40,081 nucleotides of DNA from contig JAAYTG010000107.1 in the NCBI GenBank assembly GCA_012518075.1, forward strand, positions 1 through 40,081. Reading direction: 5' to 3'. The notes beneath the pieces were generated by a model. That model had not been told where the DNA came from. It saw nothing but the letters and a program-made list of their open reading frames with translations, and searched no databases. A program made the position numbers and the translations under genes. Source of the DNA: Clostridiales bacterium. GTDB lineage: Bacteria > Bacillota > Clostridia > Caldicoprobacterales > UBA3941. Positions within the stretch are counted from its first letter, which is position 1; each line of letters opens with the position of its first letter. Positions 3 to 9,357 of this stretch are shown piece by piece.

Positions 3-920
3 TCCCAGATCCAACTACACAAAAAATATGGTGGAGTAGTGCCAGAGATAGCTTCCCGAAAACATGTTGAGGTCATAAACCCATTAATTGATGAGACCAT
101 GAGGGAAGGAGGTATCTCCTTTGATAGATTGGATGGGGTAGCGGTAACCTATGGTCCTGGGTTAGTAGGAGCATTATTGGTGGGTGTAGCCACCGCCAAG
201 GCCCTTGCCTACGGTCTATCCCTCCCACTTATAGGAGTCCATCATATTGAAGGGCATATAAGTGCTAACTATATTGAACATCCGGAACTAGCCCCTCCCT
301 TTCTCTGCTTGGTGGTCTCCGGGGGGCATAGCCACCTAATTTGGGTTAAGGATTATGGCCAATATGAAATCTTGGGTCAAACTCTCGATGATGCTGCCGG
401 GGAGGCTTATGATAAAATCGCTAGGAGCTTGGGACTGGGCTATCCTGGTGGTCCAATTATAGACAAATTGGCTCAAAAAGGGGATCCCAACTTTGTGAAT
501 TTTCCTAGGCCCTATATGAAAGAACCCCATTATAATTTTAGTTTCAGCGGCCTAAAAACTGCTGTAATAAATCACCTTCATACAATGAAGCAGCGAGGAC
601 AAGAATATCGGGTAGAGGATATAGCAGCTAGTTTTCAGCAAGCGGTGATAGATGTACTGGTGGCTAAGACCTTAAGGGCTGCTAGGGACAAAAATGCCGA
701 CAAAGTAGTGCTGGCTGGAGGGGTAGCCGCTAATTCAGCTTTGAGAGCCCAGCTTGGAAAAGGATGTCAAGACCAAGGGATGGAGCTCTTCTATCCAAGT
801 CCACTGCTTTGTACAGATAATGGGGCTATGATAGCCAGCGCAGGATATTACAGATTGCTGGAAGGGAAGATCTCCAATCTTACCTTAAATGCCAGCCCTG
901 GACTATCCTTGACTGATTAG
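3..920 (+). CDS. tsaD: tRNA N6-threonylcarbamoyladenosine transferase TsaD (5' end outside window)
   Basis: TsaD transfers the threonylcarbamoyl group to A37 of ANN-decoding tRNAs in the cytoplasm, working with TsaB, TsaE and TsaC. The frame is open from base 3 ([21 protein letters not shown]), which matches the family N-terminal region, so the GTG at 39 is not the true start; roughly the first 30 residues lie outside the window. Visible family motifs are the metal-binding [42 protein letters not shown] and [12 protein letters not shown] near the C terminus. The 306 residues seen fit a usual length near 340. It ends at TAG 918-920 and is followed by a strong terminator. Assignment is secure; nothing looks broken. 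Confidence 0.97.
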
Positions 921-955
921 ATAAGTTTACTTGGGCAAGACGAATATGACTTAAT

Positions 956-1005
956 AAAAAAGCAGCTAGATTGAACTGACCTTTGTCAAGCTCTGGCTGC
1001 TTTTT
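956..1005. terminator. bidirectional intrinsic terminator between tsaD and the DUF378 gene
   Basis: The arms AAAAAGCAGCTAGA and TCTGGCTGCTTTTT form a 14-bp stem with one G-T wobble, with an A-tract on the left and a T-tract on the right. It can end transcription of convergent tsaD (+) and the DUF378 gene (-). Confidence 0.85.
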
Positions 1006-1046
1006 GTACACTAGTATTTTATTAACAAGAAGGGTAAGTAGGGTGT

Positions 1047-1244
1047 TTAAGTAACTCTTTCTCTATCCCTAAATAATAGGGTGATGGCATATAAGCCTGC
1101 TAATCCTACAAGAGAATATATTACTCTACTTAGCACGGCGTCCTGACCACCAAATAGTGATGCCACTAGATCAAATTGAAATAATCCAATCAAACCCCAG
1201 TTCAGTGCGCCAATTATCACAAGAATAAGGGATAAACGATCCAT
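1047..1244 (-). CDS. DUF378 family small membrane protein
   Basis: A 65-residue protein with two hydrophobic segments (about 4-28 and 36-58) separated by a short polar stretch, and a charged C-terminal tail (FRDRERVT). The N-terminal LSLILVIIGALNWGLIGLF resembles the DUF378 family of small inner-membrane proteins, which has no established function. I chose ATG at 1244 because GAGGAG lies about 8 bases upstream; a longer frame from 1289 has no ribosome site and would add a polar extension unlike the family. It is convergent with tsaD and in the same direction as, and downstream of, the large helicase, with 59 bp between them. Confidence 0.8.
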   Translation of the reverse strand: MDRLSLILVIIGALNWGLIGLFQFDLVASLFGGQDAVLSRVIYSLVGLAGLYAITLLFRDRERVT

Positions 1245-1303
1245 TTGACCAACTCCTCTATATTGTTTATAGCTATAGTATAACCACAATAAGAGGATTG
1301 ATT

Positions 1304-4300
1304 CTATATAACGATTTTTTGTTCCCTTTCAGTATTTTTTATTTTGCTAAAGATATATTGTACTTTCATATTATCGGATTTTGTTAAGGTTTCAAAATCA
1401 CCTATTAATATGAGTCTCTTTCTACTACGAGACAGGGCTACATTGGTTCTACGATAATCCTTGAGAAATCCTGTGCGGGTAGAAGAACCGGGGGAGATAT
1501 AGTTACTCCGAACCCAATTGATTATTACATTATCCTGCTCCCTACCTTGAAATGAGTCTATGGTATAGATATTTTGTTCTATAAACTCGGATAACCCCTG
1601 GCGATTATCATAGAAATACTGAGAGTGATCTTGGAATACCTCCTTAAGCTTTTCTGAATGAGCCTTATAAGGCGTTATTATACAAATATCACTTAAAGCT
1701 TCCCCTTCTTTTAGTAGATCCATAACCTTGTTAACAGACAACATAGCCTCGGTCAAGTTATAAAAGGTGGAGTTGAGCTCGGTTTCCATTCGTTCTTTTG
1801 GATCTAAAAACTCTGAAGTATCGATAATCTCGATGGGGTTGGCAGGAAATTTCCTTTTTCTTTGTGCAGGAGGAAGCTGATAGTATTCCGACTCTAGGTT
1901 GGTAGAAAGCTTGCCGTCATAGATCAAGTCTGATATAAAGGAAACCATTAGAGGATCCTGAGTACGGTAGTTTATATCCAAGAAAACGCTATTATAGCGA
2001 TTGATATCGGTTATTAGGTATTCAAACATACTTCTTTGCAATTTGTCTCGAGTGCTTAAATCAATCTGAGGATTATATTCTAGAAACACCTCATTCTGTA
2101 TTGGGAAGGGGGGGATCTGCATATGATCTCCAATTATTAAGCATTTATCGGAAAATTGCAAACTAAAAAGGGTCTCTGGTACATCCATCTGGGAAGCTTC
2201 ATCGATAATTACTATATCAAATTGGGTTCTTGAAATATTTCTGTCAAGATAATATCCAAAAGGGGTTCCCAGAACAATACTGTTTTTGCCAGCTAGTAGG
2301 GATGTATAGGCTGGATTAGATGTAGAAATCGTATAGGCATAGGGCAAATCCGACTTCGCCTCTATATTATTCCCAGTCCTTAATGCCCTTACATTGTCAT
2401 CTATGAGTTTTTCCAGGATATTATCTACAGCTATGTTGGTCTTGGCAAGAATCAAGACATCTTTGCCCTCGTGATAGTACTGAAGAGCTATCTCTTTGAT
2501 GAGGGTGGTCTTTCCGGTCCCAGGAGGACCTTGAACCAGGGTCAAGGCATTATTTACACCATCCATAGTCCGCACTAGGGATACAGCCTGTTTCTGGGCT
2601 GGATTGCCCAGCAGTTCCTTGTTGTAGTATGCATTATCGGGTAAGATTTTTATATCTTTGACTTCAAGCTGCTTTTCCTTCCTTAGCCCTAGAGCTATTG
2701 CTTGTAAAAAGGGGAGATTATCATTCTCTATAGACCTGATTAGTCTATTGAAATAGGCCATCAATATGGTGTTGTTGGAGTCTTGAGTAAGAGTAGTAAT
2801 TTGGGCAACCTGGTTTTCAGAAAGATCATTTAAAGCTCTTAACTCAACTATATAACCATCACCACTTTTCTTGTCCCGACATTCTATGACCTCAAATTCC
2901 CAATCATTGGTGGAGGTCAAGATCTCGCCAGGGAAAAAGGATATAGGCATGTTAAAGATATAGGTACCCTTATAGAAGACTAAAAAGTCACATTGGATCT
3001 CATGAAACTTTTTAATCTTTATATCAAGGATCTCCATGTAGGTCTGCAGCTCACGTATTACTTCCTGCTTATCTCTAACATTGACTAAGTCTAGGTTGGC
3101 TAGCTCCACTCTGAGCTCTTCATCTTCTTCTTGCTCTTCAAGTTCTGCCAGCTTATAGAGATCGGATTTAAGTAGACGGTAGTCTCCCCGACCCCTAGGC
3201 TTTCGAAGCCCGAATTTATCTCTGGGAGTATTCTTTAGTATGTCATAGACAAAGTCAACGTATAGCCTCCGGTTTAAAGGAGCCAGTATTGTAACCAAAC
3301 CCTTGCGATAGATGCCTGCCCGCTTGGCATTTTTTAGCATGACGTGCTTTCTGCAAAGACTCTTAAGATCAAAGTGCTTTAAATAGGTATTAAAAAATTC
3401 TTTTATATTGGCCCTACTATCGAAATACTTTCGATGATCCATACTATCCATGGTAGATAGACGGCCAGTCTTGGGGTTGATATCGATGGGAGGTATACTT
3501 AAGCTATCCAAAATAAGCTCACTAATCCTAATATCTTCATCTTTTACCTTGGCACTGTAATGATAGTATAGGCCAGCCAGGGTTTTCCCCTTTAAGAATT
3601 TTAGTTTTACTGAATCGAACTCCTTTGTACCCATCAATCGAGGATGAAAGATACCCATTTCCACAGCAGCTCTTATTACGACTTCCCGTTGTACCTTTAG
3701 GGGAATGCTTTCCCAATGGCATATGGTAGAGTTGGCTATCATGGCTATCCATTCATTCATGGTTAACTCATCTATACCCAAATCATCACATATAAATTGG
3801 ACTACCGGCATCTCTTCATTTTCAATGCTGGAAGCATAATGATAGTATAGGCCTCCCAGGGTCTTATTGTTTAAAAATTTGAATCTGGTATTACAAAACT
3901 CCTTATAGCCCATAAATCTAGGATTATCGAAGTTCAATTCCTTGGCTGCGGATAAAACTATCTCCTTTTTTACTTCATTAGGCATAGACTCCCAAGGAAT
4001 TTTTGTGTCAGGCTCCCGCACCAGGTTATACCATTCTTCCATAGACAAGGGGACAATGCCGCAAATACCACATAGATAGGTTATGGTATCCATCCCTGCT
4101 TTTGTAGCTCTTTGGGCATAGGCAGCATGTAAACTAGTTAAAGTCTTGTTGTTTATTAGGCTTGTGGGAGTGTTCAAGTCTTCATGTTTAAGAAGTCGGG
4201 GATTGCTCTTACCCATCTCTTTTGCCTTTTCCTGTAGTATACGGCCAATATAGGGTACAGGAACCGCTTCCCACTTGAAATTCTTTTGGTAGGAGATAAC

Positions 4301-5209
4301 ACTTATCCATTCCTCAAAGCTAAGCCCGGGTACACCGTATACATCACATATATAATCAATGCTACGGACCCCTCCCCGGTCTAGCTTAAAAAACCTGGAG
4401 GCAAAGCTGTAAAGGCTCATGCCCTTCAAAAAAGGGATACTAACCCTTAGATCGTCCGTTGACATCATTCTTGGATTATTGTAACCCAGCATCTTTGCAA
4501 CCTGAAACAAAATGTTTCGGATGATATGATGGGGAATGACGTCCCAAAAGACACTAATTGAAGAATCAGTTATATAGGCTATCCAGTCATCTTGTGTAAT
4601 CTCTATATCCAGATCATTGCACATATTTATTATGGCACTGCCTCTGATATCATCATATTTGTTCTTATAATAGTTGTAAAACCCTGTGAGAGTGCGGCCA
4701 TTTAAGAAGGTGAACTTTACGGAAAAATCCTCATTTTTGAAGAATATAGGATGATCATAACCTAACTCCTGACATGCCCTTAGCAAGATTTCTCGTTTAG
4801 CAGCACTAGGGATATTTTTCCACGAGAAAATATTGTTATTACTGATAAATTCGATCCACTCATTAACGCTGACTTGGGGTACTCCTAGATGATTGCAGAC
4901 ATTAGTTAATATATGAACGCCCTTCTCTCTGGGGAAACCAGTCTTATAATAGGAATAAAGTCCATTTAAAGGGGCCTCATTTAAGAACTTAAAGCGATGC
5001 TTTTCCAAATCCTTGGATGCAATAAACCTGGGATTAGGTAGATTTAGCTCTTTTGCTATCATATCAAGCAAAAGGCGGTGCACCTTATTGCTAACCTTGC
5101 TCCAAACAAAAGCAGAGGGTCGTGAGGACCTATCCTTTCTGGATAATATATTTATAACTTCATCTATGTCATCGAAGATTTTGTCTTGGTCAATTGATGT
5201 AGTATTCAA
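1304..5209 (-). CDS. large SF1 (Upf1/Dna2-like) helicase with six N-terminal tandem repeats
   Basis: A 1,301-residue protein. Residues about 750-1,301 are a superfamily 1B helicase of the AAA_11/AAA_12 type: Walker A GPPGTGKTT (894-902), Walker B IIDEASQ (DEAS at 1003-1006), GDHMQIPP, NYRTQDPL, TIDSFQGREQD and motif VI NVALSRSRKR (from 1256). A beta-rich stretch before Walker A resembles the 1B-type insertion of Upf1-like enzymes. The N-terminal half holds six repeats of about 92 residues, listed separately. An acidic, coiled-coil-prone stretch (LAELEEQEEDEEL) lies between the parts. I prefer TTG at 5209 because AAAGGAG is 8 bases upstream; ATG at 5227 has only a poor site. It should unwind RNA or DNA 5' to 3'; substrate and biology are unknown. 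It appears monocistronic, divergent from purL. No nuclease domain is recognisable. Confidence 0.9.
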   Translation of the reverse strand: MNTTSIDQDKIFDDIDEVINILSRKDRSSRPSAFVWSKVSNKVHRLLLDMIAKELNLPNPRFIASKDLEKHRFKFLNEAPLNGLYSYYKTGFPREKGVHILTNVCNHLGVPQVSVNEWIEFISNNNIFSWKNIPSAAKREILLRACQELGYDHPIFFKNEDFSVKFTFLNGRTLTGFYNYYKNKYDDIRGSAIINMCNDLDIEITQDDWIAYITDSSISVFWDVIPHHIIRNILFQVAKMLGYNNPRMMSTDDLRVSIPFLKGMSLYSFASRFFKLDRGGVRSIDYICDVYGVPGLSFEEWISVISYQKNFKWEAVPVPYIGRILQEKAKEMGKSNPRLLKHEDLNTPTSLINNKTLTSLHAAYAQRATKAGMDTITYLCGICGIVPLSMEEWYNLVREPDTKIPWESMPNEVKKEIVLSAAKELNFDNPRFMGYKEFCNTRFKFLNNKTLGGLYYHYASSIENEEMPVVQFICDDLGIDELTMNEWIAMIANSTICHWESIPLKVQREVVIRAAVEMGIFHPRLMGTKEFDSVKLKFLKGKTLAGLYYHYSAKVKDEDIRISELILDSLSIPPIDINPKTGRLSTMDSMDHRKYFDSRANIKEFFNTYLKHFDLKSLCRKHVMLKNAKRAGIYRKGLVTILAPLNRRLYVDFVYDILKNTPRDKFGLRKPRGRGDYRLLKSDLYKLAELEEQEEDEELRVELANLDLVNVRDKQEVIRELQTYMEILDIKIKKFHEIQCDFLVFYKGTYIFNMPISFFPGEILTSTNDWEFEVIECRDKKSGDGYIVELRALNDLSENQVAQITTLTQDSNNTILMAYFNRLIRSIENDNLPFLQAIALGLRKEKQLEVKDIKILPDNAYYNKELLGNPAQKQAVSLVRTMDGVNNALTLVQGPPGTGKTTLIKEIALQYYHEGKDVLILAKTNIAVDNILEKLIDDNVRALRTGNNIEAKSDLPYAYTISTSNPAYTSLLAGKNSIVLGTPFGYYLDRNISRTQFDIVIIDEASQMDVPETLFSLQFSDKCLIIGDHMQIPPFPIQNEVFLEYNPQIDLSTRDKLQRSMFEYLITDINRYNSVFLDINYRTQDPLMVSFISDLIYDGKLSTNLESEYYQLPPAQRKRKFPANPIEIIDTSEFLDPKERMETELNSTFYNLTEAMLSVNKVMDLLKEGEALSDICIITPYKAHSEKLKEVFQDHSQYFYDNRQGLSEFIEQNIYTIDSFQGREQDNVIINWVRSNYISPGSSTRTGFLKDYRRTNVALSRSRKRLILIGDFETLTKSDNMKVQYIFSKIKNTEREQKIVI
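3437..5104 (-). repeat. six tandem ~92-residue protein repeats within the helicase gene
   Basis: Each unit starts with a tryptophan followed by IP or similar (W at residues 36, 130, 222, 313, 406 and 499, spaced 94, 92, 91, 93 and 93). The common pattern is W..IP...KREI...A.ELG..NPRFM...DF...FLNGKTL.GLY.YY, then about 10 variable residues, then I..ICN.LGI..L...EWI..I. Repeats 5 and 6 are the most alike; repeats 3 and 4 have lost the aromatic YYHY element. The helix pattern (A.ELG..P....) loosely recalls homing-endonuclease-associated repeats, but I cannot assign a family. A nucleic-acid- or protein-binding solenoid is an inference. Confidence 0.85.
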
Positions 5210-5423
5210 GTAAGTTTCTCCTTTCATTGTCCAACTATATTAGCAGCCTCATATCGCCTTATCCAACTCTGTTAGCCATATCATAAAATTAGATGACTTT
5301 TATTTAATATAAATATTCCTATTAAACATTATACACCTTATAGAATCCTTTTAAAATTCAAAGAATGAATAAAAATTTATTGATTTTTTGTGGAATTTAT
5401 CAAAAATACAGTTGATACTGATC

Positions 5424-5451
5424 TTGTCAAGGTCCATTATAAGAATATATA
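5424..5451 (+). promoter_or_regulatory. possible purL promoter
   Basis: TTGTCA and TATATA are separated by 16 bp, about 170 bp ahead of purL. The 416-bp region between the helicase and purL (5210-5625) is very AT-rich and holds no gene or riboswitch I recognise; the long 5' leader after this promoter is unexplained. Tentative. Confidence 0.3.
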
Positions 5452-5625
5452 GATATTTACCATGAAATATGATATTCTATGGAAGAGTATTGCAGTTTCA
5501 TTTAGATGATTTTGTAGTAGAAAGAGGCAGCATTTCCAAAGGAGTTCTAAGTCTATAACAGTGATGACTTCACAGCTTTGTTTTCCGGAAATCATGCTGT
5601 TGGCTATAAACTAGGGAGGGTTATT

Positions 5626-8600
5626 ATGCCTAATCAAGTAAGACGTGTTTTTGTGGAAAAGAAGGATCAATTTAATGTAGAGGCTGAAAATTTATATAGG
5701 GACTTGACAAAGAATCTAGGGATAGAAGCCTTGGATAAGGTACGAGTAGCCTATGCCTATGATATTATGGGACTAACTAATGATGAGTATAGGCAGGTCT
5801 GTAAGATTATTTTTAAACCATCCTATTCGGATATAATCCACCATGAAAATCTGCCCATAGATGATGGTGACAGAATACTGGCAAGTCAATTTATTGAGGG
5901 GCAGTATGATCAGAGGGCTGATGCTACAGCAAAGACTATTCAGTCCATTACTTTGGGGGCTTTACCCCAGGTAAGGTGTGTGAAGGTGATGGTACTTAAG
6001 GGGGTTCTAAGTGATGCTGACTATGAACTGATTAAGAGTTACATAATCAATCCGGTGGAATCGATATGGACATCTATGGAGAAAGCTAAGACCTTGGTAA
6101 AGGATACGGATAGCCCTCATGAAGTTGCGGTGGTGGATGGTTTTATTAAGGCCTCTAGTCAGGAGTTAGAGGATCTTATTGAAAGACTGGGTTTTGCAAT
6201 GGATATGGACGACATATTATTATGCCAGCAATACTTTAGGGATGATGAAAAAAGGAATCCTACCATAACCGAAATGCGTATGATCGATACCTATTGGTCA
6301 GACCACTGCCGGCATACTACCTTCTTAACCAGTCTAACTAATGTGGATTTTGAGGACGGATTTGCTAATAGAGTAGTAAAGAAGGCATATGAGGATTATA
6401 AAGAATCCAGAAGGTTTGTGTATGGGGATAAAGACAGAGATATTTGCCTCATGGATATAGCCACCATTGCCATGAAAGAGATGAGAAAACGGGGCAAGTT
6501 AAAAGATTTGGATGAATCTGAAGAGATAAATGCATGTAGTATTGTTGTAACCGCTAATATAGACGGTCAAGACCAGGAATGGTTGGTAATGTTTAAAAAT
6601 GAGACTCACAATCATCCGACGGAGATTGAGCCTTTTGGTGGAGCCGCCACATGCTTGGGGGGCGCCATCCGGGATCCCCTGTCCGGCAGGTCCTATGTAT
6701 ATCAAGCTATGAGGATAACAGGAAGCGGAGATCCTAGGGCTGATGTAAGGGAGACCATAGAAGGGAAGCTGCCTCAGCTTAAGATAACCAACACTGCAGC
6801 CGCGGGCTATAGCTCTTATGGGAATCAAATTGGACTGGCCACAGGTCAGGTGGCAGAGATCTATGATCCCGATTATATAGCAAAGAGGATGGAGTTGGGG
6901 GCTGTAGTTGCAGCAGCACCTAGGGAAAATGTTGTCCGAGATATCCCGCAACCCGGGGATTTAGTTATATTGGTGGGAGGAAGGACGGGAAGGGACGGCT
7001 GTGGAGGAGCTACCGGATCTTCCAAGGGGCATACCGAGGAATCCATGGAGACTAGTGGTGCCGAGGTGCAAAAAGGGAATCCTGCAGAAGAAAGGAAGAT
7101 TCAGCGTCTCTTTCGAAACCCACAGGTAAGTACCATGATAAAAAGGTGTAATGATTTTGGCGCTGGGGGAGTCTCAGTTGCAATAGGGGAACTTGCTGAT
7201 GGGCTTACTATAAACTTGGATGCAGTCCCACAAAAATATAAGGGCTTGGATGGTACCGAAATTGCTATATCTGAATCCCAAGAGAGGATGGCAGTAGTAG
7301 TAGATAAGGAAAATGAAGAGAGCTTTATCGCTGCCGCAAAGAAGGAAAACTTAGAAGCTACTACCGTTGCAGTTGTTACCCAAGAGGCTAGATTAAAAAT
7401 GCATTGGAGAGGTAATACCATTGTCGATATAAGTAGGGAATTTCTTGATACCAATGGAGCGCCTAAAAGTAATGATGTCAAAGTATTATCTCCTGATGAG
7501 GAAGACAACTTCTTCACTAAGTCAAGTGAGGCTTGGGAAAAGGATGCACAAACTAAAGGAAATGTTAAAGATATATGGTTTAGTATGCTAGAAGATTTGA
7601 ATATATGTAGCCAGAAAGGCCTGGTCCAGCGCTTTGATAGCACCATTGGGGCGGGCACTGTACTGATGCCCCTAGGTGGTAAGTATCAATTGACCCCAGC
7701 TGAGGGAATGGTAGCCAAACTACCTGTCTTTAAAGGAGATACCACCACTGGAACCATTATGGCCTTCGGATACAATCCCAATATAGCCAAATGGAGTCCC
7801 TTCCATGGAGGGGTATATGCCATTGTAGAGGCTATAGCCAAGATAACGGCAATAGGTGGAGATTTTAGAAGAGTCAGATTATCCCTTCAGGAATACTTTG
7901 AACGATTGGAGAAAGATGCCAAGAAGTGGGGCAAGCCTTTTAGTGCCTTGCTTGGAGCCCTTATGGTTCAGACTAAACTTGAAATTCCCGCCATAGGCGG
8001 TAAGGACAGTATGTCTGGTACCTTCAATGATCTATCGGTGCCTCCCACTTTGGTAGCCTTTGGAGTCACCACTTTGGATGTAAGGAATGTTATTTCACCA
8101 GAGTTTAAGAAGAGGGGTAGCCAAGTGGTCTTGATACCACTGGCCAGGGATAAATGGGACTTGCCAAACTTTGATGAACTTAAGACCAACTATACAAGGG
8201 TTCATGACCTAATAAATGATAAGAAAATATTGTCAGCTCATAGTGTTAGGTCAGGGGGAGTAGCCGAAGCTATAAGCAAGATGGCCTTTGGAAATAAAAT
8301 AGGTTTTAGGTTCGGTGATGGGGTTAAATGGGAAAGCCTCTTTAGTCCAGACTATGGCTCTATAGTATTGGAGATCGACGAAGGACAGGATATTAAAGAG
8401 CTTTTCAGAGAAATTTCATATATAGAGCTAGGGATGACTATAGAGCAAGCTACTATAGAGATAGAAGGCCATAGCCTCGACCTTGAAGAGGCTGTTAGAA
8501 GATGGGAAGAGCCCCTCGAGGAGGTTTTTCCTAGCAGAGCTTCTTCGAAAGCTCAAAGTGGACCCAAATATCACTATAAAGAAGGTATAAAGATAAAACC

Positions 8601-9357
8601 AAGGATTAAGGTAGCAAAGCCTAGAGTTTTTATCCCCATATTCCCGGGTACTGCTTCAGAGTATGATTTGATAAAGGCCTTTGAAAGAGCTGGTGGGCTA
8701 GTAGAAAGCTTGGTTTTCAGGAACCTAAGACCCGGTGAAATAGAGGAGTCTATAGAGAGAATAGCTCAAGAGATAGAGAGATCCCAAATAGTAGTTATAC
8801 CTGAGGGTATAAGTATAGGGGAAGAAGTGGAGCGAACCGGCCAATTCCCCGCTGCTATACTAAGGAATCCAAGGGTTTTTGATGCCATTATGGAGCATCT
8901 CAAGGAGAGGGACGGACTTGTCCTTGGCTTAGGTGGAGGATTTGAAGCCCTCTTAAAGCTTGGCCTTATCTCCAGCTATGATATAGATCTAACCCTTAAT
9001 CCAACGGGCTTTCATATATCATCTATAGGAGAGGTAGAGATAACCTCCAATCTCTCGCCCTGGTTTAGCGAGGCAGAAGTAGGGGACAACTACACAGTGG
9101 CAGTATCACAAAGGCAAGGACAGCTGGTGGCAGATCCCAAGGACATTGAAGCCATGGGTAAGAGTGGACAGATTGCCACCCGGTTTGCAGATTTGAATGA
9201 TGGTTCTATCTATGGAATAGAGGGCCTTACAAGTCCTGATGGAAGGATATTGGGTAGGTTGGGCCGTCCAGAACGCTTAGATAGCCATGTGGCAGTAAAT
9301 ATACCCAGTAAAAAAACCTATAATATATTTGAATCGGGAGTTGCCTATTATAGATAA
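5626..9357 (+). CDS. purL: single-chain phosphoribosylformylglycinamidine (FGAM) synthase with degenerate glutaminase domain
   Basis: A 1,243-residue clostridial-type PurL, which converts FGAR, ATP and glutamine to FGAM in purine synthesis. The synthetase part looks intact: SDHCRHTTF (225-233), KNETHNHPTEIEPFGGAATC, GGRTGRDGCGGATGSS, CNDFGAGGVSVAIGELADG and PAIGGKDSMSGTF (K793). The C-terminal class I glutaminase domain (about 1,000-1,243) is full length but abnormal. The expected GICNGFQ reads GLGGGFE (nucleophile Cys replaced by Gly1103), GH(P/S)ER reads GRPER (His replaced by Arg1214, Glu1216 kept), PGGFS reads PEGIS, SHGEGRF reads SQRQGQL and GTNCEYD reads GTASEYD. Start ATG 5626 has AGGGAGGG upstream; an earlier in-frame start at 5578 lacks one. 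No other pur gene is nearby. Inference: the enzyme uses free ammonia or another glutaminase, or the domain is only structural. Confidence 0.95.
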   Translation: MPNQVRRVFVEKKDQFNVEAENLYRDLTKNLGIEALDKVRVAYAYDIMGLTNDEYRQVCKIIFKPSYSDIIHHENLPIDDGDRILASQFIEGQYDQRADATAKTIQSITLGALPQVRCVKVMVLKGVLSDADYELIKSYIINPVESIWTSMEKAKTLVKDTDSPHEVAVVDGFIKASSQELEDLIERLGFAMDMDDILLCQQYFRDDEKRNPTITEMRMIDTYWSDHCRHTTFLTSLTNVDFEDGFANRVVKKAYEDYKESRRFVYGDKDRDICLMDIATIAMKEMRKRGKLKDLDESEEINACSIVVTANIDGQDQEWLVMFKNETHNHPTEIEPFGGAATCLGGAIRDPLSGRSYVYQAMRITGSGDPRADVRETIEGKLPQLKITNTAAAGYSSYGNQIGLATGQVAEIYDPDYIAKRMELGAVVAAAPRENVVRDIPQPGDLVILVGGRTGRDGCGGATGSSKGHTEESMETSGAEVQKGNPAEERKIQRLFRNPQVSTMIKRCNDFGAGGVSVAIGELADGLTINLDAVPQKYKGLDGTEIAISESQERMAVVVDKENEESFIAAAKKENLEATTVAVVTQEARLKMHWRGNTIVDISREFLDTNGAPKSNDVKVLSPDEEDNFFTKSSEAWEKDAQTKGNVKDIWFSMLEDLNICSQKGLVQRFDSTIGAGTVLMPLGGKYQLTPAEGMVAKLPVFKGDTTTGTIMAFGYNPNIAKWSPFHGGVYAIVEAIAKITAIGGDFRRVRLSLQEYFERLEKDAKKWGKPFSALLGALMVQTKLEIPAIGGKDSMSGTFNDLSVPPTLVAFGVTTLDVRNVISPEFKKRGSQVVLIPLARDKWDLPNFDELKTNYTRVHDLINDKKILSAHSVRSGGVAEAISKMAFGNKIGFRFGDGVKWESLFSPDYGSIVLEIDEGQDIKELFREISYIELGMTIEQATIEIEGHSLDLEEAVRRWEEPLEEVFPSRASSKAQSGPKYHYKEGIKIKPRIKVAKPRVFIPIFPGTASEYDLIKAFERAGGLVESLVFRNLRPGEIEESIERIAQEIERSQIVVIPEGISIGEEVERTGQFPAAILRNPRVFDAIMEHLKERDGLVLGLGGGFEALLKLGLISSYDIDLTLNPTGFHISSIGEVEITSNLSPWFSEAEVGDNYTVAVSQRQGQLVADPKDIEAMGKSGQIATRFADLNDGSIYGIEGLTSPDGRILGRLGRPERLDSHVAVNIPSKKTYNIFESGVAYYR

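Follow-up and report, generated by a model that had tools for sequence, protein, structure and literature searches.

The PurL protein encoded in the window (the whole stretch of 40,081 nucleotides analysed here, contig C193 of a draft genome, G000, of 2.11 Mb in 217 contigs that is 92.8% complete) is probably an ammonia-dependent FGAM synthase. It appears to take part in a concerted switch of PurF, PurL and GuaA from glutamine to ammonia, a reading to which we assign a probability of about 0.78. The enzyme would convert FGAR, ATP and free ammonia to FGAM without hydrolysis of glutamine, with free ammonia entering the synthetase site directly. The glutaminase domain would be a folded remnant, retained for the sake of the large PurL fold, and might also shape the entry of ammonia. 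PurF, PurL and GuaA are the three glutamine-using steps toward GMP, and the purine nitrogen of this lineage would come from ammonia. We infer both this structural role of the remnant and a driver of the switch, namely high intracellular ammonia, which would most likely stem from an ammonia-rich habitat.

The window PurL is a typical member of its family in all but the glutaminase site. It matches the NCBIfam model TIGR01857 (clostridial-type FGAM synthase) over residues 6–1242, scoring 1612 bits where the model's cut-off is 1057. Length, domain order and synthetase residues are like those of other large PurLs of this family; what sets it apart is the loss of the glutaminase Cys and His. Salmonella PurL structures are its top PDB matches (E 9e-68), in keeping with a PurL fold. 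The AlphaFold2 model shows a confident full-length fold with a pTM of 0.91, and in it a strand and a helix flank the former nucleophile position, one on each side. The coordinates of the gene, its domains and the altered residues and motifs are summarized in Table 1. No other pur genes adjoin purL in the window. A gene on the opposite strand (window 1304–5227) encodes a superfamily 1 helicase-like protein of 1307 aa, the initial 600 residues of which are diverged repeats of ~93 residues each.

Table 1. Features of the window purL gene (window positions) and altered amidotransferase genes at other loci (positions within each locus)
Feature	Position	Strand	Description
purL	5626..9357	+	Large clostridial-type FGAM synthase, 1243 aa; uninterrupted from ATG start to stop, AGGGAGG before the start
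PurL N-terminal part, linker and synthetase part	5626..8616	+	178/179 near-invariant positions retained
Pfam GATase_5 glutaminase domain	8617..9348	+	PurL residues 998–1241; full length, without Cys
GTASEYD	8647..8667	+	Replaces GTNCEYD
PEGIS	8800..8814	+	Replaces PGGFS (oxyanion strand)
Gly1103 (GGT)	8932..8934	+	In nucleophile Cys column; from alignment, codon read directly
SQRQGQL	9106..9126	+	Replaces SHGEGRF
Arg1214 (CGT)	9265..9267	+	In catalytic His column; from alignment, codon read directly
Glu1216 (GAA)	9271..9273	+	Sole triad residue retained
GMP synthetase, locus L178 (G000:C136)	4838..6094		Shortened glutaminase domain; NCBIfam name 'glutamine-hydrolyzing'
TrpG, locus L196 (G034)	1480..2070		GIGLGHQ, Gly for Cys; normal operon
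CarA, locus L202 (G034)	901..2055		GISLGHQ, Ser for Cys; QFCPE for QFHPE, Cys for His; normal operon

The initial annotation had placed Gly1103 and Arg1214 at the catalytic Cys and His positions, with Glu1216 retained, and had listed three further substituted motifs. An alignment of 159 large PurLs bears out these residue assignments, and the three motifs are altered exactly as first noted (Table 1). Instead of the Cys-His-Glu triad of a glutamine-dependent class-I amidotransferase, the window PurL has Gly-Arg-Glu. The whole glutaminase domain contains no Cys, so a rearranged Cys triad is impossible. The loss is selective. Near-invariant columns were taken to be those conserved to at least 98% in a set of 112 full-length intact PurLs. 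Within the glutaminase domain, the window protein retains only 42 of 62 such positions, a departure of 32%, versus 0.6% in its own synthetase part. The mean departure of intact PurLs is 0.5% within the domain and 0.7% before it, and the departures in the window domain exceed chance. Among the positions lost are the nucleophile, the oxyanion-strand motif and the SHGEG loop, and the glutamine-site motifs PGGFS, SHGEGRF and NGFQ are likewise gone. Those retained include many Gly and Pro residues, which are probably structural. From its sequence, it is near certain that the window PurL has lost glutaminase chemistry.

It is scarcely conceivable that assembly or sequencing error produced the Cys and His changes, even in a draft of 217 contigs, as every change is a single codon within an open frame and Cys-less PurLs number 34 sequences from many assemblies. 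For the Cys, error is excluded because the motif GLGGGFE of the window PurL recurs in two independent assemblies from its family, G001 and G004; these close relatives have Tyr at the His position. Simple gene decay had been discounted at the outset from the open frame and the intact synthetase motifs. Both observations stand, and selection points the same way. The dN/dS of the glutaminase domain is 0.09–0.13 for close Cys-less pairs and 0.04–0.09 for intact pairs, while that of the synthetase part is 0.06–0.12 for Cys-less pairs. These low values indicate that the Cys-less domain is still under selection.

Conservation of the synthetase, together with the pathway context, makes it very likely that the window PurL is a functional FGAM synthase. 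Its sequence is of the ammonia type, with the glutaminase nucleophile absent and the synthetase intact. In amidotransferases of the PurL kind, the synthetase site takes ammonia, and loss of the nucleophile spares that reaction. E. coli PurF with Cys changed to Ala or Ser has no glutamine activity and still uses ammonia (PMC3261824), and the C89A mutant of P. falciparum GMP synthetase (PfGMPS), inactive with glutamine, remains active with ammonia (PMC4673825). By analogy with these nucleophile mutants, FGAM formation from ammonia would be expected of the window PurL, and ammonia is likely its in vivo donor.

The initial annotation had offered three suggestions, an ammonia-dependent enzyme, a separate glutaminase partner, and a domain kept only for structure or regulation. 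The first is the best supported. Retention for structure fits as well, with dN/dS of ~0.1 in Cys-less domains and the confident full-length fold of the model. It is unlikely that the domain has instead taken on a regulatory role, such as sensing glutamine or a nucleotide, with the synthetase running on ammonia. Full length and strong purifying selection (dN/dS ~0.09–0.13) would suit a regulator, and glutamine still binds PfGMPS C89A, slowing its ammonia reaction (PMC4673825). However, the glutamine-site motifs are gone in the window PurL, and GuaA of the same genome has most of its domain deleted, so regulation is no general reason for keeping the domain.

The suggestion of a separate partner found no candidate in the genome searches. 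PurQ and PurS were not found in the five family members that have PurL (G000, G001, G002, G004 and G005). The arrangement differs from the PurSQL complex, in which synthetase and glutaminase reside on separate proteins. In G000, there is no match to PurS (PF02700), no second match to PF13507 and no second PurL, and a search with PF00117 matches only the truncated GuaA. At 92.8% completeness, a single gene may be missing from any one genome, but the failure to find PurQ, PurS or a second PurL in five family members makes a trans donor unlikely. The flanks of purL were also compared for a conserved partner against pur and gua genes, and these are present in some genomes only. An unrecognised glutaminase that gives the window PurL ammonia in trans would follow the usual design of a channelled donor, free ammonia being low in most bacteria (PMC3376133), and in some relatives a PuuD-like class-I hydrolase with an intact Cys does adjoin glutamine synthetase. 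This hydrolase, however, is nearest to gamma-glutamyl-GABA hydrolase and was rejected as a partner, and a single partner would be needed for PurF, PurL, GuaA, TrpG and CarA. We consider such a donor slightly less likely than a regulatory role of the domain.

It is highly improbable that the window purL is a redundant or decaying paralog, with purines made or imported another way. Searches of G000 and of at least 10 relatives with a Cys-less PurL revealed no further FGAM synthase, the synthetase residues are conserved as well as in intact enzymes, and dN/dS is low in both parts of the protein. Four other genomes with a Cys-less large PurL do have an intact FGAM synthase as well, which is PurSQL in G019, G027 and G039 and a second large PurL in G227. 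G019 and G039 have an intact cluster purC-purB-purA-purS-purQ-purL-purF and an intact GuaA, and each also encodes a large PurL without the Cys and a second GuaA that is truncated; the second PurF of G019 is Cys-less too. G027 combines PurSQ and a small PurL with a Cys-less large PurL and PurF, and G227 encodes two large PurLs, one intact and the other Cys-less. Judging by these sequences, the four genomes look as if they hold glutamine-type and ammonia-type sets side by side.

The substitution described for PurL is real, but it is not confined to PurL, since PurF and GuaA are changed too in G000, as are TrpG and CarA in relatives. A stretch of G000 (C136:12000-24173) carries guaB-guaA-purE-purF-purM-purN-purH and the start of purD. 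PurF begins with Met-Ser-Gly-Ile-Ile-Gly, with Ser in place of Cys, and SLDGS replaces the oxyanion motif AHNGN; this altered copy is the sole PurF found in the genome. GuaA has 418 aa, and its GATase domain is reduced to the first third (profile positions 1–74 of 190). PurF and PurH are present in G000, as are the other genes of the pathway that were sought, while genomes without large PurL (among them G003, G008, G011 and G024) lack PurH and full PurF alike, so PurL tracks the pathway. Glutamine synthetase is present in G000 and most relatives. Glutamine itself is therefore made by the cell, and loss of this enzyme was rejected as a common cause. CTP synthase (PF06418) was not found in G000 or five family members (G000–G005); most other relatives have it. 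The purF-model search, which detects the GlmS N-terminal domain in many relatives, finds none in G000, where the route to glucosamine-6-phosphate may be an alternative one.

Relatives have lost amidotransferase nucleophiles in several ways. In the purF of G014, G019 and G025, a stop (TGA or TAG) has replaced the Cys codon, with translation probably starting at a GTG two codons downstream; the Cys is lost along a different path than in G000. The nucleophile is absent from PurL, GuaA, CarA and TrpG of G034 (Table 1) and retained in its PurF and GatD subunit, and in G002 TrpG, PurL, PurF and GuaA are all altered. PurF keeps its Cys despite a Cys-less PurL in G010, G013, G016, G021, G034 and G048, suggesting that the switch is often partial. 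As a count, the association of loss in PurL with loss in GuaA is strong (12/1/1/21; Fisher p 2e-7, in a test that ignores relatedness), but supported branches of the tree yield just 3 independent pairs, too few for a tree-corrected test.

Cys-less large PurLs recur across Clostridia. Of 391 genomes drawn evenly from the class, 336 encode a glutaminase domain of PurL or PurQ. A Cys-less large PurL occurs in at least 23 of the 336; this count is a minimum, as sequences were read only from relatives and low-scoring genomes. At the Cys position, the 34 Cys-less proteins examined have Gly (26), Ser (7) or Asn (1). Most of them retain the His, which suggests that the nucleophile was lost first. On the tree of the synthetase part, the state must change 12 times, and strongly supported branches force at least 7 of these changes. 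The pur operons of G002 and G005 include the Cys-less purL, with purC on one side and purE on the other. A genome of another family, G339, has the cluster purL-purE-purF-purM-purN-purH-purD, in which a Cys-less PurL adjoins a Cys-less PurF that starts with Met-Gly-Gly. We lean towards the view that several Clostridia lineages independently dropped glutamine for most amidotransferases (PurF, PurL, GuaA, TrpG and CarA) and use free ammonia, some of them holding paired sets, although we hold this less firmly than the reading of the window PurL. At one locus (L335; G136:C37:13800-18200), the PurL glutaminase domain is interrupted by several in-frame stops, apparently in a decaying gene. An enrichment of biogas-plant MAGs among the Cys-less forms was considered and dropped; AS-type isolate names occur on 3 of 4 named Cys-less loci, and on several intact ones too.

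A similar case is mammalian carbamoyl phosphate synthetase I, which has kept a glutaminase-like domain, lost the nucleophile Cys and uses free ammonia. The window PurL has the same two features of the domain, whereas ammonia use is known for carbamoyl phosphate synthetase I. However, that is a different enzyme, and in the present case several pathways of one genome have lost glutaminase activity together. Short NadE is ammonia-only, with ammonia as the in vivo donor and no glutaminase partner (PMC3376133), but it has no glutaminase domain, while the window PurL retains one at full length. In ~700 genomes each, the same 2012 survey listed neither a PurL nor a GuaA that lacks a glutaminase component, and it listed no such PyrG, AsnB or CarAB either (PMC3376133). 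The PurF' of Crenarchaeota has no N-terminal Cys, as in the PurF of G000, and was proposed to be ammonia dependent (PMC3261824). Crenarchaeota carry PurF' in addition to an intact PurF, however, whereas the altered PurF of G000 is the only one found, and PurL and GuaA are changed too. Ammonia-only relatives of glutamine enzymes are thus already known. In a literature search of open-licence papers, we found no description of an ammonia-dependent PurL or of joint loss across several pathways, and both are apparently new.

In the textbook view, glutamine is the in vivo donor of these enzymes and free ammonia is scarce in cells. Annotation models label the altered GuaA and CarA as 'glutamine-hydrolyzing', and the pattern is therefore hidden in databases. 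If ammonia is indeed the donor, these cells would live with free ammonia sufficient for nucleotide synthesis. Such lineages would then serve as natural experiments, both on the reason for which a dead glutaminase domain persists in PurL and is cut down in GuaA and on the way ammonia enters PurL.
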